64,000 bases of DNA. Source: Loxodes magnus (Eukaryota; Ciliophora; Karyorelictea; Loxodida; Loxodidae). Position 1 is the first letter of the stretch; every line of letters begins with the position of its first letter. Below the pieces are notes generated by a model. The model saw nothing but the letters and a program-made list of their open reading frames with translations. It did not search any database and was not told the origin of the DNA. The stretch lies in assembly GCA_946699065.1 (NCBI GenBank), contig CAMPDV010000932.1, forward strand, positions 1 to 64,000, in the 5' to 3' direction. Positions 1 through 57,342 of the stretch are shown in pieces. The position numbers were made by a program, and so were the translations under genes.

Positions 1-3000
1 CTGAGAGATAAGGTCTAATAAATATAAATTGTGATCTAAGTCTATAAATTAATGTTTATTATTTTATTAATTCTTTGTTTGTTGCTATAAATGTAATTTT
101 TAGATTTAGTCTCATTCTTATATTGTATATAAATAATTTAATTAATTTTTAGTTAAATTAAGAATCCATTCTATATAATTATAATTAAACTTTCACTATA
201 TAACTATTATTAAAATTTTGAATTAAGTAAATTAATATAATTCTTTAGAGACTTTAATAAAATAGATTTATCATTACTTAGAGAATCTTCAAACTTTTAA
301 TTACAATAAATCATCCAAATTATTATCTAAAGTACCATAGTTAGCATTCCTTTATTTTCCTAAAACACTGTTTTTTAGATTTTAATGCTATTATTTAGAG
401 TAAATATTGGCTTCATCAATTCAGCTTTATTTAATATCATGAAAAGTTTCTTACAAGAGAAATTATTTAATTCCTATTAAGACAGCTAACTAAACTAGTT
501 TATTACCAAATCTTTTAGATTTGGTAACTATTCAAATTTTAGTATTTTTATACCTGAATAAAAATGTATAAAATGTAGGTATTTTGTTCTTCTAATGTTT
601 GTATTATATTACATTAGATACTTATATTAATTTAGAAGTAGATCATATGTGAGCTTTAAAGAGCAACAAATAAAGAATATTTTTAGTTTAATTTATTTTC
701 TTTCATAAAATACTAAATTATTTTAAATCCTTCTCTTTAAACTATAAGCATTGTTAATTTTTAATTGTTATATTTTAACTTATGCTTATATTGTACCAAG
801 ATAGATTGTAATATAAGCTTTTATAAGTATACAAATTAATCACTTCTATAAGTAAAATAAGATATTACATTTAGCTACCAAATTAAATAACTATTCCATC
901 TATAATTAACCATTATTACTGCTTAAGCTTCCTTAGCTATCTCTTAGTAGGCTTTTTTGTAATATTTACTATTTGAATAAAAATAATTGTAAAATAGATG
1001 ATTTAAGTCATAAGGAATGCTAAACTTCTAAAAGTTCTTGGAAGAATTCTATATCAAGAAAGAAAATTTAAAGAATGAGACAATATAAAATCTATTAAAA
1101 ATAATGAAAAGAAAATCCCGGATAATCTGAATCTACATTAAACTCTGTGCAAAAATAGTAAAAAAATAACTCCTTTTTACTCAAAGTTTTATCCTAAAAA
1201 TCTACGTTCATAAGAGGAAGTTGATAACCTTTAACTTTGAAGAAAGAAAATTTTAAATATACTGTAATTTAAATCTTGAGATATAGAAGATTATAATGAA
1301 AATATCTCATACTCAATAAAAGTAGATATTAATAGAATGAAATCTATAATTAAACACAGAGATTTTATTTTTATCATACTGTTTTATTCCTAAATCCAAA
1401 TATTTTACTCTAGTTGCATTGAGTAATTTTTTAAAATCTGATTAAATCTTTGCAGCAATACTTAAATTAGCCTACTCTTCTAACTTAAATTAACATTCTT
1501 ATCTTTTATCCAGTTCTTGAACTATTAGTTTATCATTCTTTTTCAACTATAACTATAAGTTTTGGATTTAAATTTAGTTCCTTTGATTTTGTTCAAATAC
1601 TACCTCTAACTTCTTTGCTAAAAATAAATATTTGTTGCATTTTAATAAGTTACCTTACAATAAGTTATTAAGGCCATAAAGTATTATTAATAAAAAATTA
1701 ATAAATTAAATAGATCTAAAGAAGGCTCTTAGAACTAAATTTAATAAAAGAAGCTAAAAGCCTAAGCAAGAAAGCTAGAAAATAGAAAGATAACTGAAGA
1801 AAAGGAATGTAAGTTGTTTTGATTTGCTGTTAATCAAACGAAAATTTAGAAGGAATACCAATATTACTAAGCTAGTAAAAGGAGTTTAGCAAAGATTTAC
1901 TAAGAATTTTTGTCCGAAAGTAGTGGAAGAGCTGGGCTAGTTTTCAAAGGCAGTTAAAAGAAGTTGTTAATAAAAGTTAAATGAAAGCACTAATTATATT
2001 TAATTTCCTATCATGCTAAATTTTTAAGATTTGTAAGAAGAACTGAAATTTGATTTTATAAAAGGGTAAAGAAATTTAGATAATTACCTTGGAATTTAAA
2101 ATAGAAATATAAAGCAATTGCTTAAATATCTGGAAAAATATCCCAGTGAATACCATCTAATTGCAATATAAGACAGATTATTATATAGTAAGGTTTTTTA
2201 TAAGCTGTAACTACTTCAAGCCAAATAATTGCAGAAAAAATTAGGAAAAGGAATATTAGAAAAGGATTATTCTAGATTAAAAAAAATAGAACGAAGATAA
2301 GTATAAAATAAGCAGAATATAAGGTAATCAAAATATAAAATGATAGCCAAAATATCGCGTACGCAAGCTCAAGATGTACTCATTAAATGAAACCATAATA
2401 TATAACTAAGTTTGAGCTTAAATTCTTAAAATTTTTACATAAATGAAAATAGTGAAATATCAAGAACTTATAACTATTCTTTAGATATTCCTTATACACC
2501 TTATTCATAATTAATACCAAATCCGCATTTCAAATATCTTAAAGAGATAGTCATAATAGCTCAGTAAAGTAGACTTAATATACTACTAAAAATCCTTTAA
2601 AATTTGTTGAAAAAATTAGTTAAATTAAAGAATGTGCTACAAATTTAAAAGTTTAATCATGTATAGAGCCTAGGTTTTTGAATGTTTAAATAGAAAATGC
2701 AAGGACTGCTCTTGAAGAGTCATGGAAATAATAGCTAGAGTTATTAGATAATCTAGGAATTGAACTTTTTGTGTCAGGCTTGCGAGTAGAAATATAAATA
2801 CTGAGTTATTGTTGATGTGTATGCTCTTAAGTGGAGTTAAAATACCTTATTAAGGAAATGGGAAGCTAAGGATTTAATCTAGAAAAATATCATTATCTGC
2901 TAATATTGCTAGATAAAGGACTAGCTTAATTAGATCATAGAGACTAATATAGATAAATTGCATTTGGAATATTAAGAAATTTAAAAAAAAAGGACAGTAG

Positions 3001-6000
3001 AATAAAAAATAAAGCTGATGAATGAAGACAATGAGACCTAGCAAAAATAGCAATGCACGCAAACAAGTTAATTGAGTGATATTTTAGCTTAAGTAGCTTT
3101 TACTTAAAGAAATAAGACCAATAAAGCTATAAATACTAATTTTAAAGTCCGGTGCAAGAATATTAATAAATCTACTATATTTGAACTAAAAGATCTGTCT
3201 AAGTATCTTTAAAAAGAGTTCTGTTTAATTATTTTAAAATTCTTAAATTTAATTTACCTGAAATATTATTTAGTACAGCTAAGTTTTTTCTTTCAAATAG
3301 CTTCTTTATATTATTTTTACTGTTTCTGATCTGCATCACAAATCTTAATAAAATCTAAGTATAATATTTTATCTTATTAATTAAAAAATCTATTTATCTA
3401 CAAAATTTAAGAACATTAAATTTAACTAAATTTTGCTTTATAATTATTTATTTTTCTTTAATAATCACTAAAATATTTTCAATGTCTATTGGTAAATTTC
3501 TTGTTGCATATAGCATCTCAAGTACTTAAAGATCTATGGCAGCTTTTTTAAACAATTTCATAATGCTAAAGAATTCTGAATGATTTATATATCTTTATTT
3601 TTATAAAATAGCTCTTATATTTCCTTTTTACTAATCTTACATTGGATTTAGATAAACATTTCGTCCAGTTAATCTTATATTTGAATTTTAGATTTGTTTG
3701 CTTCAGGATTTTTATATACTTTTGTTTTAGCATTATAACACTTTAAAAGTTTATTATTTTAAATTTCTTCAAATTAAATTATTTTTATGTATGTTTAAGA
3801 TTTTCTAGTCAAAGCTAGCATTAATATTTGATGAATCATGCACAATTTACTAAGAAGTACTTTAAAAAATATTTTAATACAGATGAGTATTTAGATTGTT
3901 ATCTGCTAAATATATGATAATGCTTAATAAACTAAAATTTATATAGTTCAACTCTAATACTAAAAACTATGACTATTAAAAGTCCTTCATTGTATAACTC
4001 TCAATAAGTAGATTCATTTTAACCATAATATAATTGTATAAGGAAAAGGGTACGATAAATTTACTTTCTGTTATCTTTTCAATAGCTATAAAAGCTTTTT
4101 TATCAATTTTCAAATTTTTAATGCCTGGTTTTTCATTCTAATCTCTTAAAATTTAACTTTTTTAATAGCTATTTAGTTATACTTATCTATTCCTTAAAAA
4201 ATTATCTTAATTTTCAAATAAATTTCTTATTTATGTGAGCTACAGCATATTTTTAGAGCTTTCTATTGCTTCCTCATCTTTTTTACTAATTCAAACAACT
4301 TCTTTTCACTACTAAGCGTTCAGTCCTTGTGGAATAAAATTTGATATCTTTATAAAAAATCTAAACTGTATTTGAATTATTCCTAAGATTTTGTTTAAAT
4401 TATTTGTTAAATAATATTGATAATAGTTAACTAAATTTTCATATGATAAAAGTAGTAAATTGATTTATATTTTTCTTTTATAAATGTGTAAGTAATTTAA
4501 TTTAAAGTTTATAATAATTATATATCCTTAGATATAATATGCTAATTATAAAGGTTTCTCTTATTATCTGAGTATGTTGCTATTTATTTATAAGCTTCTT
4601 AAGTTATTAATTGTAAGATCCGAGGTAGTATAGTGGCTAGTATTTCTGCCTGTCACGCAGACGACCCGGGTTCAATCCCCGGCCTCGGAGTTTTTTTCCA
4701 TACATTTTTAAGTTAGTTTAACTCTATCTATTTATTACGAACATTATACTGGGCATATTAGATAAGGTAAGAGACTAAATAGATTAAAAATAATTAAGAA
4801 GCATAATAATAATAAAGAGACTAATGAAATGAGGAAAATAATTAAAGCAATTAAAGCTTATAGATAATAAGAGGGAACTAATAAGATAGAAAAACGTTAA
4901 TAAAGAAACTTAAAAGCAATAATATATTTATAAATGTTTCAAATATAAAAACAGCAAATGATTTTATAAGTATATATAATTAGTATTATTAAGTTATTAA
5001 ACCTTCTAAGTAAATAATAAAACTAACTTTAATTAGATTTAATTCAAGAAGGAATTTAACACTAGAAATAAAAAGATTTATTAGTGACTTAAAAAATTAA
5101 AGAAATAATAGAAGATTAAATTAATTTATCATTCAAGCAATTTTATTAAATTATGCTTTGAAATAATAATAGATATTTAAACTACTATCATAGAAATCTA
5201 ATTGAGTAGCTTAGAATTAATAATTATAATCTATTATAAGAGATATATTAATTAACCTAAATCTATTTTATGTTTAAGAATTAAGAAAATTAGATAAAAG
5301 TAATTATTTAAGGAACTTTCTATCCGACTTAACTATTACATCATTTCTATGTTTAAAGTTTATAAAGAAGGGAAGCTTTTCATATTATCTGAATTTTACA
5401 TTCTAATTCTTTAATCAGTCTTTAAAATTAATATTTCTGATTATTCCTTTTGATCTTTAGGGAAGATTAGTTAAATATATTAATTTATCTCCTTAAATGT
5501 AATATAATACTTTAAATAATTTGAACTATATCTATATAACTAATAATAAGTCCATAATTTGAAAATATATAAATAATTGAATAATAAAATTCGAAAATCT
5601 AGGAAATCAAATTTATTTTGCTCGGCTAAAGCAAGAAAAGATATAGAGTTTTAATTTATCTTCAAATAAGCTTCTATGCTTAGATTATTCTTAAGCATAT
5701 ATTAAATTACTAAAAGCTTCTATATTTATTAATCTTATATCTTAAATTTGAATACAAGATAAAGACTCTTTACCAAATAATATTAGAAGGCTAATATTTG
5801 CAAAGATTAATTCTAGTAATTAGAATTTTAGCTTTTTATCAAAGAATACAAAAATAATTAAAGTATATTCCATTTAATTATATTAGTTACCCTTAAGACT
5901 TCTTTCTCATAAAATTAGAAAATTTAATTTTTATCCTTGATTTCAAATGAATAACTTAATAGCATATCTTAATAAGGAAAACTATAATAATGACTGTATC

Positions 6001-28384: not shown

Positions 28385-29835
28385 ACAAATTATAATGTCT
28401 TAAGATTATTCACTAGCAAAAAACCTATTTTTGTCATGAGTCACTATATTTTTTTCTTCTTGTGATAATTCTAAATCAATGATATTTTAGACTTCACAGT
28501 AATCTCTTATCGAAGTGTGGGTAAATTAAATTTTATTTTTGTAACTTTACTCTTCTATCTATATCAAACATCCTATATCATTTTATTTTTATTGAATTAC
28601 TCTCTTCACTTTTAATTTCATTTTTCAATATTTCTAGCAGGCACTGATATATTCTATAGTATATGGTTGCTTTTACCTTATTTGAAAGCGCTGTTTATTG
28701 CCTTATATTATCCCAATTCATCATGCACGTCAGATAATAATAATAATAATAATAGTAAACAAAAGTAATAAAAGTTTAGCCTCCTCTAGATTTTCAACCA
28801 GGCTTTTGCTACCATTTTTTTAGCGTGGATAGAACGACTGAGAATCTTCTGCTTTTTATGCAAATAATTTTTTCTTGTATACCTTTGTTTGAATAATTCA
28901 GAGTCTGCTGAACATGCTTAACGTTCTTCGTTGTTCTTTTATCTAAATTTACCTTTATTGATCGCAATTTTGTAATAAGTGCCACTTTGATTTGCAATAA
29001 TAGCATTATTTAATTTGTCTTTTCTTTAATCTATTCAGAACTAATTTTTTCAAATTAGTTAATTCTTTTGAGTAAGTTTATATTAATCTTTACGTCATTC
29101 TATTTATGGACTTTTGCTTATGTAAAAACTTTTTCAATTATCATATTTTGTTCTTGCTTAAAATTTGATTGAGATTATTCATATAGTTACTATTTCGTGA
29201 CTAAATCACTCTAAATCAATTGTCGTCTAATTATAAGTAACTCATTATTTATCTTTGCTAGTATTCATTAGTTCTCTTAGTTTTTCCCCTTGATTGTAAA
29301 CTGTTTCCTAATAATTATGTATTATTGTTTTCATTTAGTCAAGTTATATTTGTAATTATGATTAATTTTACACCTTTATTAGATTTGTCTCTATTATTCT
29401 AACTATGATTTTTCCTTCAGATGAGGAACTTGATTTATCTTCTTTCTTTTGTTGTCTCGCATTTGTTTCGCTGCTTTCCTTTTTGCGTTCTTAATTAGGT
29501 TTTTGGAAAGGCGAATAGAATATACAATTTTTTTTATACACATCAAATAAAAACAATATTTTATAAACTTAAAATTTTCTTTCTCTTAAATTGTACTATT
29601 TTAAAAAGCAAATTCTTTTAGTTTATTTTCAAATGCTTTAATGATTGGAAGATATACTAATATATATAAATATTCATTATTATACTCTAGATACTTTAAA
29701 GTCAGAACTTCTAAAAATAAATTTTTTCAGAACCAGAATCTCAAAAAGTAATAATCCAGTTTTCCTATTATTATCTAAAAATTTTAAATCTTCAACTGGA
29801 GATCATCCTTAGTCATAAGCTTGGATTTAGAGAAC
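28385..29835 (-). pseudogene. Scrambled remnant of a NACHT-WD40 family gene
   Basis: Pieces of the neighbouring NLR-like gene recur on the minus strand. The Walker A region (29640-29835) matches 34060-34240 but the P-loop is frameshifted (GLLLF, then DSGSEK). A VHDELGQYK near 28720 parallels the Walker B-side DAYDELGNY. FTHTSIRDYCEVQNIIDLEL (28465-28530) matches FIHASIRDYYVARNIVNLVL of the intact gene. The order is kept but intervening sequence is lost or replaced, including the 29150-29470 segment that is also present at 16-17 kb. A (TAA)n run lies at 28738-28755. It is a dead paralogue arranged like the living gene next door. Confidence 0.65.
29150..29470 (-). repeat. Dispersed fragment paired with 16130-17000
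   Basis: The minus-strand translation QETVYNQGEKLRELMNTSKD aligns with the fragment flanking D1 at 16-17 kb, and the nucleotide match continues on both sides. This copy has no D element, so it serves as the uninterrupted version. A weak R-SNARE resemblance (GEKL motif, later FRVIQSRNS) is noted but unproven. Confidence 0.5.
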
Positions 29836-30344
29836 ATTATAAAATTAAGAAATATTCTTATTTCTTTATATATCATCTTTTTTATTTTTTATCATATTTT
29901 AATAGATACTTTTTTTACATTTTAAAGTAAGTCAGTTCTATTCTATTGTTTAAGTAAATTAAAAAGCAAGCTCTAGATGAGTTAAAATTCAAGTTTATAT
30001 CAAGTCTTAATTTCCAAATGACACAATATTTTAGAATTATAATAATCCATCATCGATATATTACCTTGCTAGATTATAAGCAAGAATATCTAAGATATTT
30101 AACATTAAAATTGTTTTTTTATGGATTTTTTCATTTATCCGTCCATGACTCCTTATAAAGAAATTCTTTAAATTGGAGATAACATTAGTGTCCATAATTC
30201 CAACTCAAAAATACAAAGAAAACTGCCTTCTGGCAATCTAAACATTACAGAACTTTCAAAATAGTGATTTAATACATTATTTGGACAATATTAAATTTAA
30301 AAATTTTTTATCTTAAAGTGTTAAAAAAACTTTTAAAATTTTAT

Positions 30345-30828
30345 TGCGTCCCAAAAAAATTTATTCAGTTCCAAAAAAATTTATTCCGTCCAAAAAAATT
30401 TATTCCGTCCCAAAAAAATTTATTCCGTCACAAAAAAATTTATTCCGTCCCAAAAAAATTTATTCCGTTCCAAAAAAATTTGTTCCGTCCCCAAAAATTT
30501 CATTCCGTCCAAAAAATTTTTATTCCGTCCCAAAAAAATTTTATTCCGTCCAAAAAAATTTTATTCCGTCTCAAAAATTTTATTCCGTCCCAAAAAAATT
30601 TTATTCCGTCCCAAAAAAATTTTATTCCGTCCCAAAAAAATTTTATTCCGTCCAAAAAAATTTTATTCCGTCCAAAAAAATTTTATTCCGTCCCAAAAAA
30701 ATTTTATTCCGTCCCAAAAAAATTTTATTCCGTCCCAAAAAAATTTTATTCCGTCCCAAAAAAATTTTATTCCGTCCCAAAAAAATTTTATTCCGTCCCA
30801 AAAAAATTTTATTCCATCCCAAAAAAAT
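30345..30828. repeat. Minisatellite of about 21 bp, about 22-23 units
   Basis: Tandem units of TTCCGTCCC followed by A7 and T4-5. They are regular at the right end (30590-30800) and more variable at the left. The array begins about 65 bp beyond the stop codon of the minus-strand NACHT-WD40 gene, so transcripts of that gene could run into it. Overlapping frames in it encode simple KKFYSVP-like strings. These open frames are a by-product of the repeat and are not called as genes. Confidence 0.95.
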
Positions 30829-30893
30829 TATAACTTATAATTTACTTATCTTAATTCAATTATTATTATTTGTAAAAATTTATTCAAATCTCA

Positions 30894-33800
30894 TCACAAT
30901 GAAAGATACCTGTCTCCCATTAGTCTCACATTCATCTACTCCATTGACACTCCCTCAAAGTCACATTGATGCACCACCAATCCATTCCTTCCCATCATCC
31001 TCTTTAACAAATAATTCCGATGATCCTTTGATGCCTCCCATATCTTGATTGTTTTATCCTCACTTCCAGATATTAAATACTTAGAGTCACTTGATAATAC
31101 CAGAGAAGTAACCCAAGAAGTATGACCCTATAATGTTCTTATAAGCTCATATGTCTACATGTCCCATATCACTATTGTGTTATCACCACTTCCTGATATT
31201 AAATACTTAGAGTCACTTGATAATACCAGAGAAGTAACACGATCAGTATGACCCTATAATGTTCTTATAAGCTCATATGTTTACATGTCCCATATCCTTA
31301 TTGTTCTATCATCACTTCCAGATATTAAATACTTAGAGTCACTTGATAATACCAGAGAACGAACAGAACCAGTATGACTTTATAGGGGCTTAGTTAGATT
31401 ATCTACCTACATATCCCATATCCTTATTGTTTTATCACGACTTCCAGATATTAAATACTTAGAGTCACTTGATAATACCAGAGAATAAACAAAATGAGTA
31501 TGACCCTTTAATGTTCTTATAAGCTCATATGTTTACATGTCCCATATCCTTATTGTGTTATCAAGACTTCCAGATATTAAATACTTAGAGTCACTTGATA
31601 ATACCAAAGATTTAACATCATAAGTATGACCCTCTAATGTTCTTATAAGCTCATATTTTTACATGTCCCATATCCTTATTGTTTCATCACCACTTCCAGA
31701 TATTAAATACTTAGAGTCACTTGATAATACCAGAGAAGTAACACGATCAGTATGACCCTCTAATGTTCTTATAAGCTCATATGTTTACATGTCCCATATA
31801 CTTATTGTGTTATCACCACTTCCTGATATTAAATACTTAGAGTCACTTGATAATACCAGAGAATTAACACCAGAAGTATGTCTTTATAGAGGCTTAGTAA
31901 GATTATCTACCTAAATGTCCCATATCCTTATTGTTTTATCATAACTTCCAGATATTAAATACTTAGAGTCACTTGATAATACCAGAGAAGTAACATTAGA
32001 AGTATGACCCTCTAATGTTCTTATAAGCTCATATGTTTACATGTCCCATATCCTTATTGTTAAGTAACTTCCAGATATTAAATACTTAGAGTCACTTGAT
32101 AATACCAGAGAAAGAACACGATTAGTATGACCCTCTAATGTTCTTATAAGCTCATATGTTTACATGTCCCATATCCTTATTGTTTTATCCTCACTTCCAG
32201 ATATTAAATACTTAGAGTCACTTGATAATACCAAAGATTCAACAGAACCAGTATGACCCTCTAATGTTCTTATAAGCTCATATGTCTACATGTCCCATAT
32301 CTTTATTGTTCTATCACCACTTCCAGATATTAAATACTTAGAGTCACTTGATAATACCAGAGAAGTAACATTAGAAGTATGACCCTCTAATGTTCTTATA
32401 AGCTCATATGTTTACATGTCCCATATCCTTATTGTTAAGTAACTTCCAGATATTAAATACTTAGAGTCACTTGATAATACAAGAGAAAGAACACGATTAG
32501 TATGACCCTCTAATGTTCTTATAAGCTCATATGTCTATATGTCCCATATCACTATTGTTTCATCACTACTTCCAGATATTAAATACTTAGAGTCACTTGA
32601 TAATACCAGAGAAGTAACACGATCAGTATGACCCTATAATGTTCTTATAAGCTCATATGTCTACATGTCCCATATCTTTATTGTTCTATCACCACTTCCT
32701 GATATTAAATACTTAGAGTCACTTGATAATACCAGAGAAGTAACATCAGAAGTATGACCCTCTAATGTTGGCATTTAACCAAAATTAACCTAACTCATAT
32801 TTGCACCATTGAATTTACAATTCCTCAACCATGCTCCTCTAAAATTCACCCTTTATAAATTAGCACCACTCATATCACAACCATCAAACACCGAATCACT
32901 CAAATCCGCCCCAGGTACCTATATATTTTGAAGATCTGTCATCTACGTAAACTGATAATCCATCCAATTCAATATTGTTATACAGTTAGCACCCACCGTT
33001 TATAAAGATTTATTAGATCTTGTCCACTTCACTATCTCCAATACATTTTATTAAAATGTAACCGAACTATCTATCTCCCTTATAAACTACTAGATCTCCT
33101 TATTGTCCACTATCGAATATCTGTTTATTTCGTGAGCCTCTATAGAATTTATGCTATTTTGCTTATTTAAGACTAAATTTACTATATTCCTTGCCACATA
33201 GTAATCCCTTATCGAAGCATGAATAAACTCAAACCTCTTCTAACCATTTTCCTCTTTTATCTATATCAAACATCCTATGTGGTTGGATTTATCAGTCAAT
33301 TAATCAATTCATTACTAGATTTCCTTATCCATACTCTCTAACTTTAACTAACCTCTTAACATCTAGTATGCCGCACTTATTTAAATATTCTAAAATAACT
33401 TTAACAATTTTTGTATTTCCTCATTTTATTTATTTAATTCTTTTAATTTTTTTAACTTTTATTCAGTTTTATCATTTCATTTATTTATAAAGATATCATA
33501 TATCTTTGCCCTTTACACCTTTTTATCCACTCCACTCCTCAAATAATTTATTATTTCCTCCTCACTCATACATATATATAACATAAAAGGATTATTTAGA
33601 ATTTCCATTAAACCCGGAATACTTTAGATGATACTCATTTACTCTTTTACCTTTTCAATCATTTCTATTTACTACTCATTCACAATTTAACTTGGATCTT
33701 AATTTGCACTTTAACTAGCACCTTGATTCTATTTTCTTAAGATTAAACTTATATATTATTCTATCTAACTTTGATCAAAAGGCTTTATATATACCTCCTC

Positions 33801-35798
33801 CAATTGTTTTACCTAAGCACTTTCATTTCTATAAGGAGAAAAGAAATTTTTATAATTATCAGCTGTTAAAGCATAATTGATTCTACAAGTAATTATATAC
33901 TTTGCCTAAGGGTATTTATAGCTTATTTTATTTTTACTCATTATGCTAATATAATTTCCTAATTCATCATAAGCATCAAATAGAAACACCATCTTCCTAA
34001 ACTTCGAACTTTCATTTTCCTCAATTTTGCAGTTTTTTAAAGCTGTCTCTATTAATTAGTCTTCATATTATTTAATGGTTGGAAGATAAACGTATATCGG
34101 TAGTCAGTCATGCTTCTACTCCAGATACTTAAATGCTAAAGTTTTCAGAAATAGAGATTTTCCGGAACCTGAATCTCCCAAAAGTAATAATCCAATTTTA
34201 TCTTTACTGTCTAAAAAGTTCTAAATTTTGCTTTCAAGATTATTTTATTCCTTAGAACTAGGACTAGGAGCACATAATAAACTTACGTAATACTCCTTCT
34301 TTTCTTAAATCTCATTTTACAAATAGTTTCTCATATTCTAATATATTTTACTGTCTATACCCTTTAAGGCCAACCAATTATCCTCCATAGTTTAGGTAAA
34401 TTAAGTAACATGGTCCTAATTCTTTAGTATTTCTATTACTATCTATTGTTCCCTATCATTTTAAATTAAGCTTTCATTCTTTTGCTTAAATACTCTCTCT
34501 TTGTAAGTTGTAGCTACTTAGTTCTTGTCAATGCTTAGTTCTAATAATGATTTCAAAGCAAAGTATCGAATCTACCAATCTTTATCCTTACACAATTGCT
34601 CTAGCAGCTAGCACGATTCCTTAACTAGTTCTGGAGAAGCTTTAGGATTTTTAATCATGTGCTTCAAAAGTTAACATGCTCTAAATCTTAGATCCAACTT
34701 TTCTTTCAAGACGAGACTTTTAAATTATTCAAATGTTTCTTATGAATATTTAATTACCAAGTCATAGGTAAGGGCATCTAGGTATCTTATTCTAACTATT
34801 TTTTTAAGATGAATTTTTGAATTTATTTATTTAGTTCCCCAAACAATGAAATCCTTTATTATGGAGATCGACTTAGTATCTATTGTTCCATCCCCCAACG
34901 ATAAAGCAACTACCCATTAAGTGACTTTTAGTGCCTTACAGAAAACATTAAAGTAATCAGAATCTTTATTGTCTGGAATATTTTCCAATATCATCTAACT
35001 GTATCTTAAGTCAAAATCAAGCTCGGGACCTCCTATTTACTTTATATTTACTAACTTTAATGCAAACTCAATTTTTTACATGAGTTTCCCTTTCGTTTCT
35101 GCATTTATGAAAAAATCATTATTATTCTTATTTTTCTTACTTTTAGAAGAGTTTTACTCATTCTTCTAAAGCAACATATCCAATAACTCAGGAAGATTTT
35201 ATACAAGCTACTCCTTCAAGAGCTAAGACCAACCTTCAGTATATTAATGAGAGACTATTTCTATAAATTGATTAATTAACACCAAAGGATCATCTAGTTT
35301 GGCCAGTTTATTTTTTTGAATGGTTTAAATTCCTTGTAGAATTAATTCCATCTTTTACTAGCTTAAACCCTCTTTTAAGAGATTTAATCCTTCTTGATAA
35401 ATCTTTTGCTCCTCAGTTAATAAAACTGGTTATTATGATTAAGGAACATTTGCAATGCTTCCTTATGGGAATAATTAAGTTAATTGAGGAGTTTAATCTT
35501 TTTACTTCGTACTGCAACAGCCTCCTCCCTTCATTCTCATACTTTTCTAGAATTTAAAGTTTTAGATTTATTTGATTCTCACTGCTCCTTAATAAGAAGT
35601 CGTCTATAAGCTTTCCTTTAGATAATTTGTTTAGTTTATCTAAAACTCTTTAACATCTAGTATTTCTGCGTTTACCAGATAAGGATAATTTTGAATAAAG
35701 CTGTAACTTTCAGTAACTATATAGTAATGTAAGGCATTTTCTGCTATTTTTCCTTGAATATACTCGTCCATTAATCTTGGCAAAGTTTTATTATCCAT
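30894..35798 (-). CDS. NLR-like NACHT-WD40 protein (one in-frame TGA)
   Basis: ATG at 35796-35798 to TGA at 30894-30896 is exactly 1635 codons with TAA/TAG as Gln. Residues about 1-520 are mostly helical, without a known effector domain. NACHT follows: Walker A LLLLGDSGSGKS (about residue 535), then KMVFLFDAYDELGNY and YIITCRINYAL. FIHASIRDYYVARNIV (about 835) closes the NTPase module. Pentapeptide-like ADLSDSVFDGCDMSGANL precedes 14 WD40 repeats and a short unique C terminus. NACHT-WD40 proteins are signalling NTPases whose propellers sense ligands and drive oligomerisation; some fungal ones control nonself recognition. No intron is needed. Codon 565 (34104-34106, HD-TGA-LPIYVYLP) is TGA where Trp is expected, so the gene may be newly inactivated, read through, or affected by a base error. 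Confidence 0.88.
31030..32772 (-). repeat. 14 near-identical WD40 repeats (126-bp unit)
   Basis: Each 42-codon unit carries the invariant core LVLSSDSKYLISGS and most share IRIWDMQTYELIRTL-x-GHT. Variation is concentrated at the two residues after GHT (SW, DR, GS, HF, YD, DR, SG, SN, NR and others), the residue after the following Val, and x in SGSxDxT. Two units use a different linker (VDNLTKPLQ). The 5 bp-shorter-looking SYLT form occurs twice, each after a TSNVT unit, showing block copying. All length changes keep frame. The pattern points to concerted copying with selected variable sites. Confidence 0.92.
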
Positions 35799-51846: not shown

Positions 51847-54800
51847 AAATTCTTATTCCATAAAATAATGAAAAGAAAATACCGGATAGTCTGAATCCGT
51901 ATTAAATTCTATGCAAAATAAGAAGAAACTATCACTCCTTTATGCTCAACAATTTTACCTAAAATTCTACATTCATAAGAGGAAGTTGATAACCTTTAAC
52001 TTTGAAGAAAGAAAAATTTAAGTAAACTGTAATTTAATACTTGAGATATAGAAGATTATAATTATAATATCTCACACTCTATGAAAAGTAGATATTAATA
52101 GAATGAAATATATATTTGAACATATTTATTTGATTATCCTTATTACTATAAATTTAGTAATTTTAAAACCTTTAAATTTTTTAGGTATTTAAAGAAGTTT
52201 GAAAGGTAAGTGATTTAAGAACTTAAGAAGTCTATAGTAAGAGTTAATCTAGTAAAATAAAAATGATGCTGAAGAGAATAATTTTATGGCTTAGTTTAAA
52301 TTATTTTTCAGATTAATTTAAACCATTCTTTGAGGAAAAAAGTAAGATAGAAACTAGGTCATCAGAGATTATATTTTTTATCATACTGTTTTATTCCAAA
52401 ATCCAAAGGTTTTACTCTAGCTTTTTTAAGTAATTTTTATAAAATCTGATTAAGTCTTTGCAGCAATACTTAAATTAGCCTACTCTTCGAACTTAAATTT
52501 ACATTCTTATCTTTTATCCAGTTCATAAACTTTTAGCTTATCTTCCTTTTTCAACTAGAACTATAAATTTGGTTTTAAGTTTAGTTCCTTTGATTTTGTT
52601 CCAATACTATCTCAAATTCCTTTACTAAAAGCTGCTAAAAATAAATATTTCCTGCATTTTAATAAGTTACCTTACAATAAGTTTTTAGGGCCTTTTGGTA
52701 TTATTAATAAAAAATTAAAAAATGAAATAGATCTTAAGAAGACTCTTAAAACCAAATTTAATAAAAAAGCTAAAAAGTCTAAGCAAGAAAGCTAGAAAAT
52801 AGAAAGATAGCTGAAGAAAAGGAATGTAAGATGCTTTTATTTGCCGCTTAATTAAATGGAAAACTAGTAAGGATATCAACATTACTAAGTAAGTAAAAGG
52901 ATTTTATTAAAGGGGTTAAAAGAATTTTTGTATGGAAGTAGTGGAAGAGCTGAACTAGATTTCATAGGTAGTTAAAAAAAGTTCTAAATAAAAGCTAAAT
53001 GAAAGTATAATTAAATTTAATCTTCTATCATGCTAAACCTTTTAGACTTGAAAGAAAAACTGGAATTTAACTTTATAAAAGAGTAAAAAATATTTTTTAT
53101 AATTATCTTGAAAGTCTAAAAAGAAGCAAAAAGGGATTGTTGGAATATCTGGAAATATATTCCAGTGAACACCATCTAATTGCAAGATGAAGACAGAGAA
53201 TTGTATAGTAAAGTTCTTTATAAGCTGTAACTACTTAAGTCAAATAATTGCAGAAAAAATTAAGAAAGGGGATATTAGAAAAGGATTGTTCTAGATTAAA
53301 AAAAAGAACGAGATAAGTATAAAATAAGCAGAAAATAAGGTAATCAAAATATTAAAATGTTAGTCAGAATTTTGCGTACACAAGCTCAAGATGCACTCAT
53401 TAAATAAAACCAAAATATATAACTAAGTTTGAGCTTAAACTCTAAATTTTTGCATAAATGAAAATAATTAAATATCAAGAACTTATAACTATTCTTTAAT
53501 TATTCCTTATACACCTTATTCATAATTATTACCAAATTCGCACTTAAAAATATCTTATTTATTAGAAACTATATAAAATAGTATAATGCATCGAATATTA
53601 AAGGCATTAATCAGCTACTGAGTTTCACAGAGTTAAACTTTAACATTACCTCCAAAACAACTCTAATTTCATCTGTGATTCTTAGGTTAAAGCCTGAAAG
53701 ATTTAGTCATTCAATTACCTCTACCTTGTAACTTATAATTAAATATATTAACACTGATATAATAAATCCTTTAATGAGGTAAAAGAGGAGAAAGTATATT
53801 TTAAGAGATAGCCATAACAACTAAATACCATATACTCCATATGATACTAAAAATATTTAAATTTTATAGAAATATTTAGCTTAAACTTATGGAATTTGCT
53901 ATAAATTTTAGAGTACAATAATGTAAGAAGTTTAGGCTTTGGTATTTTTAAATAGAAAAGGTAAGGACTGCTACTTGAAAAGTTACGAAAATAATAGCTA
54001 GAGTTATTAGATGATCTAGGAACTGAACTTTTTGTGACAGGCTTGCGAGTAGAAATCGAAATACTGAGTTATTATTGATGTGTATGCTCTGAAGCGGAGT
54101 TAAAATACCTTATTAAGGAAATGGGTAGCTTGTATATCTACCTAAGGATCTAATCTAGATAAACACCATTATCTACTAATATTGCTAGATAAAGGACTAG
54201 CTTAATTAGATCATAGAGATTAATATAGATAAATTGCATTTGGAATATTAAGAAATAAAAAAAAAAAAAAAGTCAGTAGAGCAAAATAAAGCTGATGAAT
54301 GAAGACGATGAGACCTAACAAAGATAACAATGCACGCAAATAAGTTAATTGAGTGATATTTTAGTTTAAGTAGCCTTTACTGAAAGAAATAAGACCAATA
54401 AAGCTATAAATACTAATTTTAAAGTCCGGTGAAAGAATATTAATAAATCTACTATATATTATTTAAAAGATCTGTCTTAGTATTTCTAAAAGAGAGCTCT
54501 GCTTAATCAATTTTAAAATTCTTCAATTTAATTTACCTGAAATATTATTTAGAACAGCCAAGTTTTTTCTTTTAAATAGTTTTCTTTATATTATTTTTTA
54601 TGTTTCTGATTTGCACCTAAAATCTTAATAAAATCTAAGTATAATATTATATCTTATTAAATAAAAAAAATCTATTTATCTACAAAATTTAAGTGCATTA
54701 AATTTAACTAAATTTTGCTTTATATTTACTTATTTTTCTTTAATAATCACTAAAATATTTTCAATGTCTATTGGTAAATTTCTTGTTGCATATAGCATCT

Positions 54801-55898
54801 CAAGTACTTAAAGATCTATGGCAGCTTTTTTAAACAATTTCATAATGTTAAAGAATTCTGAATGACTTATATATATTTATTTTTATAAAATAGCTCTTAT
54901 ATTTCCCTTTTACTAATCTTACATTGGATTTAGATAAACATTTCGTCCAGTTAATCTTATATTTGAATTTTAGATTTGTTTGCTTCAGGATTTTTATATA
55001 CTTTTGTTTTAGCATTATAACACTTTAAAAGTTTATTATTTTAAATTTCTTCAAATTAAATTATTTTTATGTATGATTAAGATTTTCTAGTCATAGCTAG
55101 CATTAATATTTGATGAATCATGCACAATTTACTAAGAAGTACTTTAAAAAATATTTTAATACAGATGAGTATTTAGATTGTTATCTGCTAAATATATGAT
55201 AATGCTTAAAAAACTAAAAATTATATAGTTAAACTCTAATACTAAAAATTATGACTATAAAAAGTCTTTCATTGTATAACTCTAAATACGTAGATTCATT
55301 TTAACCATAATATAATTGTATAAGGAAAAGGGTACGATAAATTTACTTTCTGTTATCTTTTCAAAAACTATAAAAGCTTTTTATCAATTTTCCAATTTTT
55401 AATGCAAGGTTTTTCTCTTTAAGCTCTTAAAATTTAACTTTTTAATAGTTATTTAGTTATACTTATCTATTCCTTAAAAAATTATCTTAATTTTGAAATA
55501 AATTTCTTAATGAGGCAAACTGAAGCATATTTTTAGATCTTTTTATTGCTTCCTCATCTTTTTTATTAATGCAAATAACTTCTCTTCAATACTGAGAATT
55601 CAGTCCTTGTGGAATAAAATTTGATATCTTTATAAAAAATCTAAACTACATTTGAATTATTCCTAAGATTTTGCTTAAATTATTTGTTAAATAATATTGA
55701 TAATAGTTAACTAAATTTTCATATGATAAAAGTAGTAAATTGATTTATATTTTTCTTTTATTAATGTGTAAGTCATTTAATTTAAAGTTTATAATAATTA
55801 TATTTCCTTAGATATAATATGCTAATTATAAAGGCTTCTCTTATTAATTGAGTATGTTGCTATTTATTTATAAGCTTCTTAAGTTATTAATTATAAGA

Positions 55899-55970
55899 TC
55901 CGAGGTAGTATAGTGGCTAGTATTTCTGCCTGTCACGCAGACGACCCGGGTTCAATCCCCGGCCTCGGAG
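55899..55970 (+). tRNA. tRNA-Asp (anticodon GTC), copy 2
   Basis: Identical over all 72 nt to the copy at 4619-4690, including the T-run directly downstream. Flanking DNA differs from copy 1 at scattered positions, so the identity of the tRNA suggests that it still functions. Confidence 0.96.
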
Positions 55971-57342
55971 TTTTTTTCCATACAGTTTTAAGTTAGTTTA
56001 ACTCTATCTATTTATTACGAACATTATACAGAGCATATTAGGTAAGATAAGAGACTAAATAAAATAAAAATAATTAAGAAGCATAATAATAATAAAGAGA
56101 CTAATGAAATGAGGAAAATAATTAAAGCAATTAAAGCTTATAGATAATAAGAGGGAACTAATAAGATAGAAAAACGTTAATAAAGAAACTTAAAAGCAAT
56201 AATATATGTATAAAATGGATAAAATATAAAAAAACCAAATGATTTTATAAGTATATACAATTAGTATTATTTAAGTTAAACCTTCTAAGTAAATAATAAA
56301 ACTAACTTTAATTAGATTTAATTCGAGAAGGTATTTAGCACTAGAAATGAAAAGATTTATTAGTGACTTAAAAAATTAAAGAAATAATAAAGGATTAAAT
56401 TAATTTATCATTCAAGCAATTTTATTAAATTATGCTTTGAAATAATAATAGATATTTAAACTACTGTCATAGAAATCTAATTGAGTAACTTAGAAAAATA
56501 ATTATAATCTTATATAAGAGATATATTAATTAATTTATTTCTATTTTTACATTTAAGAATTAAGAAAATTAGGCAAAAATAATTATTTAAGGAACTTTCT
56601 TTCCGATTTAACTTTTACATCATTTCTATATTTAAAATTTATAAAAAAGGGAAGCATCTCATATTATCCGAATTTCACATTCTAATTTTTCAGCCAGTCT
56701 TTAAAAATAAATTCTTCTAGCTATTTCATTTTGATGTTTAGAGAGGATTAATTAAATGCATTAATTTATCTCCTTAAATTTAATATAATAATTTAAATAA
56801 TTTAGACTACTATATCAATAGAACGATAATCAGTCCCATAATTTGAAAATATTATAAAAATTGAATACTAAAAACCGAAAATTTAGGGGATTAAATCTTA
56901 ATAGTTTGGCTAGAGAAAGAAAAGATATAGAGTTTTAATTTAACTTCAAAAAACTTCTATGCTTAGATTATTCTTAAGCATATATTAATTTACTGAAGGC
57001 CTCTATATTTATTAATCTTATATCTGAAATTTGAATACAAGTTAAAGACTCTTTTCCAAATAATATTAGAAGGTGATCATTTGTAAAAACTAATTATAGA
57101 ATTTAGTCTTTTAGCTTTTCATCAAAGAATACACAAATATTAAAGGAAATTCCATTTAATGATATTATTTACTCTTAAGACTTCTTTTTCGTAAAATTAA
57201 ATAATTTAATTCTTATCCTTGATTTCAAATGAATAACTTAATAGCATATCTTAATAAAGATAAACCATAATAATGACTGTATCTACAAAGAAGATTTAAA
57301 TTATTTTTATTGATATAGATAGCAAAAATTAATAATTAGCTT

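Follow-up and report, generated by a model that had tools for sequence, protein, structure and literature searches.

A large Loxodes magnus gene family predicted to encode NLR-like STAND receptors with hypervariable WD40 arrays

The question raised by the locus described here is whether a ciliate, Loxodes magnus, encodes receptors resembling those of the allorecognition genes of the fungus Podospora. The gene concerned lies on the minus strand of a 64,000-nucleotide stretch of DNA (the window, bases 1-64000 of contig CAMPDV010000932.1, here C932), for which a first-pass annotation had described 14 near-identical WD40 units and proposed a ciliate NLR-like gene of Podospora-like pattern, with amino-acid change clustered at a few sites per unit. 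The genome assembly comprises 705,730,643 bases in 7843 contigs, and a size of 706 Mbp is reported for the macronuclear assembly (PMC11441545; statements on published work in this text refer to the available excerpts of each paper). From sequence comparison, we consider it probable, at about two chances in three, that the gene belongs to a large family of Loxodes NLR-like STAND proteins that would form a repertoire for sensing nonself inside the cell.

The repeats proved to be only the final part of the gene, with a further 2.8 kb of coding sequence upstream on the same strand. The whole predicted coding sequence (30894..35540, minus strand, as are all features of the gene given below) occupies one frame, from M(R)MKGGGCC... 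to TGA. Its product consists of an N-terminal region (34248..35540), a NACHT-like P-loop NTPase (33744..34247), a pentapeptide-repeat linker (32781..32969; PF00805 at 75.8 bits, cut-off 20.2, with matches to solved pentapeptide proteins), 14 WD40 units (31038..32765; 14 stretches matching PF00400, together with the unit alignment) and a conserved C-terminal tail (30897..31037; KDHRNYLLKRMMGRNGL...RYLSL). Within the NTPase the motifs GDSGSGKS (at approximately 34155-34178), FLFDAYDEL and IITCR were read, which we take to be the P-loop, an acidic Walker-B-like motif and the ITCR motif, respectively. TAA and TAG are read as glutamine, TGA serves as the stop, and three in-frame TGA codons are read as tryptophan (KHD-W-LPIY at 34104..34106, INK-W-NDKT at 33477..33479 and IQQ-W-IDQL at 33309..33311), a codon usage that fits the karyorelict code (table 27). 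Two consecutive TGA codons, also seen in several paralogues, form the presumed stop (30891..30896). With this code and the assembly size, and with a NACHT-like P-loop NTPase upstream of the repeats, the proposal of a ciliate NLR-like gene was supported.

The array was split into units by wrap-around alignment, as were those of its relatives. It lies in one open frame, with units of mostly 126 bp (units 3 and 6 have 123 bp and the last is short), and Tandem Repeats Finder (TRF) gave a period of 126 with 86% matches. Mean amino-acid identity between units of the window gene is 81.5%, with 92.4% at 36 framework sites and 20% at six variable sites. The repeated blocks described in the first pass are present, as units 3-4 and units 6-7 (in protein order) both read TNRVL..SGSYLT followed by TSNVT.

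Relatives were compared in two sets, the first comprising the window gene and the 29 best-ranked relatives of 150 scored, and the second 20 further members hand-picked from these 150 to spread identities. Identity between units of one gene ranges from 0.76 to 0.86 across the 30 genes of the first set, with some genes below 80%. That set contains 26 arrays of 14 units, three of 15 (including two identical copies) and one of 17. The second set has 14 units in 14 genes, 15 in one, 18 in one and 3 in two, with at least 18 units in L096, where the sequence is cut at the fetched end, and no array found in L086. Fourteen units are therefore present in 40 of the 50 genes examined, a count that does not come from a random sample given the hand-picking of the second set. 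The 18-unit gene (L081) contains a repeated block of four units and shows how unit number can change. Since 40 of the 50 genes keep exactly 14 units, the Podospora-like pattern first proposed stands for its diversifying sites and, as described below, for family-wide exchange of repeats, and not for change of repeat number as the main mode. A seam, VDNLTKP, ends unit 7 of the window gene (31890..32015) and of 25 of the 26 fourteen-unit genes of the first set. The seam pattern occurs in 29 of the 30 genes of this set, at unit 7 in 26 and at unit 8 in the three 15-unit arrays, and was not found in C970a; an extra seam is present in the window gene (at the end of unit 11) and in C1661a. Using a looser pattern, 12 of the 14 fourteen-unit arrays of the second set have it at unit 7.

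The sites at which change was claimed to cluster were 6, 7, 9, 25 and 27 of the 42, to which site 30 was added after viewing the window gene. In this gene the six sites hold 69% of the nonsynonymous and 13% of the synonymous pairwise differences, with pooled nonsynonymous and synonymous diversity (piN/piS) of 0.578/0.118 as against 0.045/0.115 at the other 36. For counts beyond the window gene, 11 near-identical copies (C3206a, C953a, C376a, C835a, C932b, C932c, C669b, C2290a, C2290b, C2632a, and C3196a) were dropped from the first set, leaving 19 genes, 18 of which lie outside the window; C376b was kept despite a frameshift upstream of its array. Counting was pairwise and free of a tree because units recombine, and bootstrapping was by gene because units are not independent; selection was measured by this counting method and not with HyPhy. 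In the 18 genes the five sites gave piN 0.576 and piS 0.164, a ratio of 3.52 (gene bootstrap 3.08-4.16) compared with 0.45 (0.40-0.52) at the other 37 sites, and held 53% of the nonsynonymous and 12% of the synonymous differences; none of 20000 random five-site sets matched their nonsynonymous load. The claimed clustering was thus found both in the window gene and in 18 genes that lie outside it, and the outcome set beforehand as speaking against it, even variation with dN/dS below 1, was not what was found.

The synonymous diversity of the six variable sites (0.150) is equal to that elsewhere (0.155), so that with a piN/piS of 3.5 neither hypermutability nor relaxation suffices as an explanation, and targeted hypermutation at the variable codons is disfavoured on the same ground. 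Site 17 is variable too, with a ratio of 0.83 in the 18 genes. There are 254 distinct six-site combinations among the 271 units of the 19 genes, and in nine diverged genes (127 units) the five sites again head the ranking by entropy. The NACHT region gave a dN/dS of approximately 0.15-0.37 among eight close copies, with one identical pair left out, and this purifying selection suggests that the genes of the family are used. At sites 6, 7, 27 and 30, variation within the codon lies in the first two bases and the third is almost constant (T at 6 and 7, A at 27, G at 30); at site 27, TGA serves as a variable tryptophan codon in 6 of the 271 units.

Comparison of the NTPase with the repeats indicated that units have been exchanged between loci. 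The NACHT region of C953b is 0.740-0.759 identical to that of the other 18 genes, yet its framework unit DNA is 0.89-0.95 identical to theirs; against the window gene the framework value is 0.937, compared with 0.941 among the units of that gene itself. The correlation between NACHT and framework identity is weak across all pairs (rho 0.24, p 0.002). Gene pairs with 96-98% identical NACHT DNA and equal unit number are 0.14-0.30 identical at the variable sites among the genes listed, with no unit identical at all six. Variable-site identity between different genes is 0.226 for units of the same index and 0.209 for units of different index, and it is 0.251 within genes. The eight longest identical runs between genes measure 115-125 bases, six of them joining units of different (approximate) index, and sharing of a complete unit is rare, with 268 of 271 codon strings occurring once.

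The most recent copies give a finer view of this process. C953b, C2632a, and C3196a have no differences in ~1.4 kb of NACHT DNA and no framework amino-acid differences; what separates them are three synonymous codons and six variable-site codons, with two bases changed in four of the six. In the next 0.7 kb upstream, 11 sites set C3196a apart from the other two. Across the near-identical copy groups, multi-nucleotide changes account for 8 of 16 changed variable-site codons versus 6 of 39 framework codons, which suggests change in short patches. Variable sites changed ~2.5 times as often per site as the framework in these recent copies (16 over 6 sites vs 39 over 36), and given a contrast of only this size, the stronger long-term contrast would be the product of selection and homogenisation together.

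The family is large. A protein query across the NACHT-linker-WD40 junction gave at least 150 matches including the window gene (from 2219 first-look candidates), and a 25-nt family tag occurs 152 times at up to 2 mismatches, some of these being relics, with no occurrence in a reversed control. Because certain copies match each other completely or almost completely, possibly as haplotype duplicates, distinct genes are fewer than loci. The N-terminal 273 residues gave 141 matches (from 805 first-look candidates), many beginning at query residue 1, and the start M-K/R-x-K-GGGCC is kept in ten loci, L039 (the window gene) to L048. The C-terminal tail is readable in 29 of the 30 first-set genes, the exception being C932b, which is frameshifted there. 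In an alignment of six members, three lacking part of the N-terminus and two part of the C-terminus, NACHT (PF05729) and nSTAND_NTPase5 were found at E<=0.01 in all six and HEAT at E<=0.01 in five. The HEAT-like match of the window gene (PF02985) has 18.5 bits for a cut-off of 23.5. No N-terminal effector or adaptor domain was recognised with Pfam at E<=1 for the window protein or with NCBIfam and PADLOC at E<=0.01; such a domain is not present in every NLR-like protein. The PADLOC matches to mad8, over the NTPase of two members, are weak (15.5 and 17.5 bits).

The 14 units presumably fold as two seven-bladed propellers. A model of units 1-7, for which the input was an 8-row self-alignment of seven-unit stretches partly one unit out of register, had a predicted local distance difference test score (pLDDT) of 93.3 and a predicted template modelling score (pTM) of 0.90. 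Template modelling (TM) scores of 0.93-0.94 were obtained against WD40 structures including 5yzv, 7big, and 2ymu, the first-ranked structural match being an eight-bladed design with TM 0.79. In a PDB search, 2YMU aligned over the whole array. Strands of unit 1 in the model are at 8-13, 19-24, 28-33, and 38-44, so that sites 6, 7, and 9 belong to the d-a loop and the beginning of strand a, sites 25 and 27 to the b-c turn, and site 30 to strand c. The Podospora pairs 7/9 and 25/27 have been placed in two loops on the top face (PMC1805685), and by analogy with these same two loops the variable residues of the Loxodes units probably form one face. NLR-like STAND proteins are expected to have C-terminal sensor repeats that form a superstructure, and the 14 WD40 units, with a seven-unit model of pLDDT 93, have this character.

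The closest parallel is with the NWD/HNWD genes of Podospora (HET-D, HET-E, and HET-R), which also combine a NACHT domain with highly alike WD40 units that are exchanged between paralogues, and for which two seven-blade propellers have likewise been proposed (PMC1805685 and PMC12222747). In Podospora the diversifying codons are 7, 9, 25, and 27, around purified codons 8 and 26 (PMC1805685), and the Loxodes units likewise diversify at these four codons with 8 and 26 conserved. Both show concerted evolution across paralogues, framework identity in Loxodes being nearly uncoupled from NACHT identity. Units of one HNWD gene are more than 80% alike; the value here is 81.5% in the window gene and 0.76-0.86 across the first 30, some of which fall below 80%, and the mean of the window gene falls short of the 85% unit-identity threshold of PMC4986451. 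There are also clear differences. The Podospora NWD genes are a family of 10 with variable unit number (PMC1805685), and HET-E usually has 11 alike units with three cryptic blades (PMC12222747). Loxodes, in contrast, has at least 150 matched loci, arrays of 14 alike units whose number is mostly fixed between paralogues, additional variable sites at 6 and 30, a pentapeptide linker and a weakly HEAT-like N-terminus, and the HET domain of the HNWD proteins had no Pfam match at E<=1 in the window protein. Given shared sites and exchange within a different architecture, we class the gene as a Podospora-like NLR-like STAND receptor and not as a member of HNWD; the different architecture suggests that the likeness may be convergent.

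Other proteins share single features with the family. The WRAP propeller of Nostoc punctiforme Npun_R6612 (PDB 2YMU) has 14 nearly identical WD40 blades in two seven-bladed propellers, and the Loxodes array resembles it in its 14 alike units and full-length alignment; unlike in Loxodes, a hypervariable face is not described for it in the excerpts of PMC6805158. Highly repetitive WD40 proteins are known from bacteria, fungi and some protists according to a survey (PMC5587647), whose internal-identity threshold of 0.7 the window gene passes at 81.5%, and the words NACHT and hypervariable are absent from its available text. The Tetrahymena leucine-rich repeat (LRR) genes with 90-bp exons are comparable as large, young ciliate repeat-protein families, and differ in having LRR units that are borne on exons and vary widely in number; the term positive selection does not occur in the available text of that paper (PMC6564038). 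Animal APAF-1, which was matched in the PDB search, has the same order of an ATPase followed by WD40 propellers. It is a single gene with divergent blades and cytochrome c as ligand, unlike the Loxodes family.

A number of observations weigh against the receptor interpretation or parts of it. The PF05729 scores read for three members (25.2 for the window gene, 23.6, and 23.0 bits) are all below the cut-off of 26.7. A single-sequence AlphaFold model of the linker and all 14 units was unusable (pLDDT 35.3), so that the double propeller rests on the seven-unit model, the seam and 2YMU. Exact flanked donor tracts were found for only some of the recent changes, which leaves templated exchange at patch scale tentative; the exchange of units could also be old. 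Two copies, C932b and C376b, are frameshifted, the first within its C-terminal tail and the second ahead of its array, and are either decaying or misassembled. Finally, the family could sense internal ligands.

This last point leads to an alternative in which these are scaffold or signalling STAND proteins tuned to internal partners, for example in feeding or cell-surface patterning. Scaffolding is a common role of WD40 proteins. Repeat-protein families have expanded in Tetrahymena species as well (PMC6564038). We regard such a specialisation as unlikely, as the listed pairs with 96-98% identical NACHT DNA and equal unit number share only 0.14-0.30 at the variable sites, with no unit alike at all six, and same-index units are barely more alike than others, unlike what stable one-to-one partnerships would leave. 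The diversifying codons shared with the Podospora NWD genes and the high diversity between copies would also suit true allorecognition or recognition of mating partners, as by het-d and het-e, with the propeller recognising a polymorphic protein from a different Loxodes clone and setting off incompatibility. However, we know of no cell fusion in Loxodes comparable to fungal heterokaryons, and the many copies per genome would be easier to reconcile with a repertoire that senses pathogens than with a single locus of allelic recognition, which makes this explanation quite unlikely.

Repeat turnover without selection for diversity, by which the array would be a protein-coding satellite with relaxed or mutation-prone variable codons, would be in keeping with a genome rich in tandem repeats (PMC11441545) and with the long arrays formed by a different WD40 family on contig C1503. 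It appears very improbable in view of the equal piS (0.150 vs 0.155) with a piN/piS of 3.5 at variable sites, the purifying selection on NACHT and the retention of 14 units in 40 of 50 arrays. Collapsed or chimeric repeats might be suspected, given the difficulty of assembling near-identical repeats, the chance that some of the closest copies are haplotype duplicates, and the frameshifts of C932b and C376b; but PacBio circular consensus reads were used (PMC11441545), and the 30 first-set arrays come from 23 contigs, each in one frame, with the tail readable in 29, so that an assembly artefact is scarcely credible as the explanation.

Several features were observed around the gene and elsewhere in the assembly. 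C932 carries three family members, spaced 41-47 kb apart, which suggests tandem block duplication. A segment of the window is also duplicated in direct orientation, at 1161-5981 and 51926-57263, the copies lying ~51 kb from each other; they are 78-97% identical piece by piece, and both contain a tRNA-Asp (4619 and 55899). The two near-identical frameshifted family copies are located at C932:76606-81468 (C932b; L029, L068) and C376:265412-270274 (C376b; L026, L065). Directly downstream of the gene is a 21-bp satellite (AAAATTTTATTCCGTCCCAAA; 24 copies, 92% matches, 30335-30829), and ~4-5 kb downstream, on the same (minus) strand, are decayed NACHT fragments at 29550-29810 and 28421-28588, 42-43% identical to the gene. 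A downstream partner gene had been suspected from a recurring variant of the tag ~5 kb downstream; two such cases, L098 on C334 and L099 on C366, proved to be frame-broken NACHT relics and not a partner. As these relics too come after family genes, gene and relic seem to be co-duplicated. The units on C1503 (104,612 bp; L001-L008) belong to a different WD40 family (GHADSVLSIAISPDQKWIVSASYDKTIKVWDFQTGSCLRTFT, 126 bp), with PF00400 matches from 12.6 to 101.6 kb and a unit count far exceeding one propeller pair. In L001 and L005 tandem units cover practically the whole 3.1 kb (TRF, 95% matches), and by eye these units vary at sites 7, 9, 25, and 27 too; as a different unit family, the giant arrays were set aside as evidence. 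Dense WD40 matches also occur on C119, C9, C1832, C620, and C272.

The many-copy family, with diversified contacts on a conserved frame, is best explained by the sensing of changing foreign ligands. In the NLR-like receptor proposed here, two seven-bladed propellers would present ~84 variable residues on their top faces; a ligand bound at the propeller face would switch the NTPase to its active form, whereupon the receptor would oligomerise and its N-terminal region trigger a cellular response. If each copy has its own specificity, the family would amount to an inherited repertoire for intracellular nonself, be it bacteria, viruses or other cells. Mutation at the face, patch-like exchange from unit to unit and, now and then, duplication of a whole unit would supply new specificities for selection to sort, with the framework and NTPase remaining conserved. 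Loxodes is a predator of other microbes, and bacteria and viruses would for this reason be likely targets. Tentatively, and with the odds somewhat against it, the family may be a germline-encoded combinatorial immune repertoire of a single-celled predator, comprising at least 150 STAND loci, among them some duplicates and broken copies. A typical locus would encode a double propeller of 14 blades with ~84 hypervariable face residues, diversified by genome-wide exchange of blades and short patches under selection that holds 14 blades. On this view the ciliate would have arrived independently at the HET-E recipe of fungi, with the same codons and on a larger scale.

To our knowledge, little is known of the intracellular immunity of ciliates. 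Titles and the beginnings of abstracts among the open-access papers listed (a scope outside which subscription journals and preprints fall) described no ciliate NLR family of this type. In the genome paper, gene predictions are set against tandem-repeat masks of at least 1 kb (PMC11441545), and masks of this kind might hide such genes in annotation. If the interpretation is correct, the mechanism known from fungal NLRs is matched in a distant eukaryote, at the same face codons and with a clearer structural rule, seven plus seven blades, and the Loxodes family would provide a testable model for how repeat receptors gain specificities while keeping their fold.
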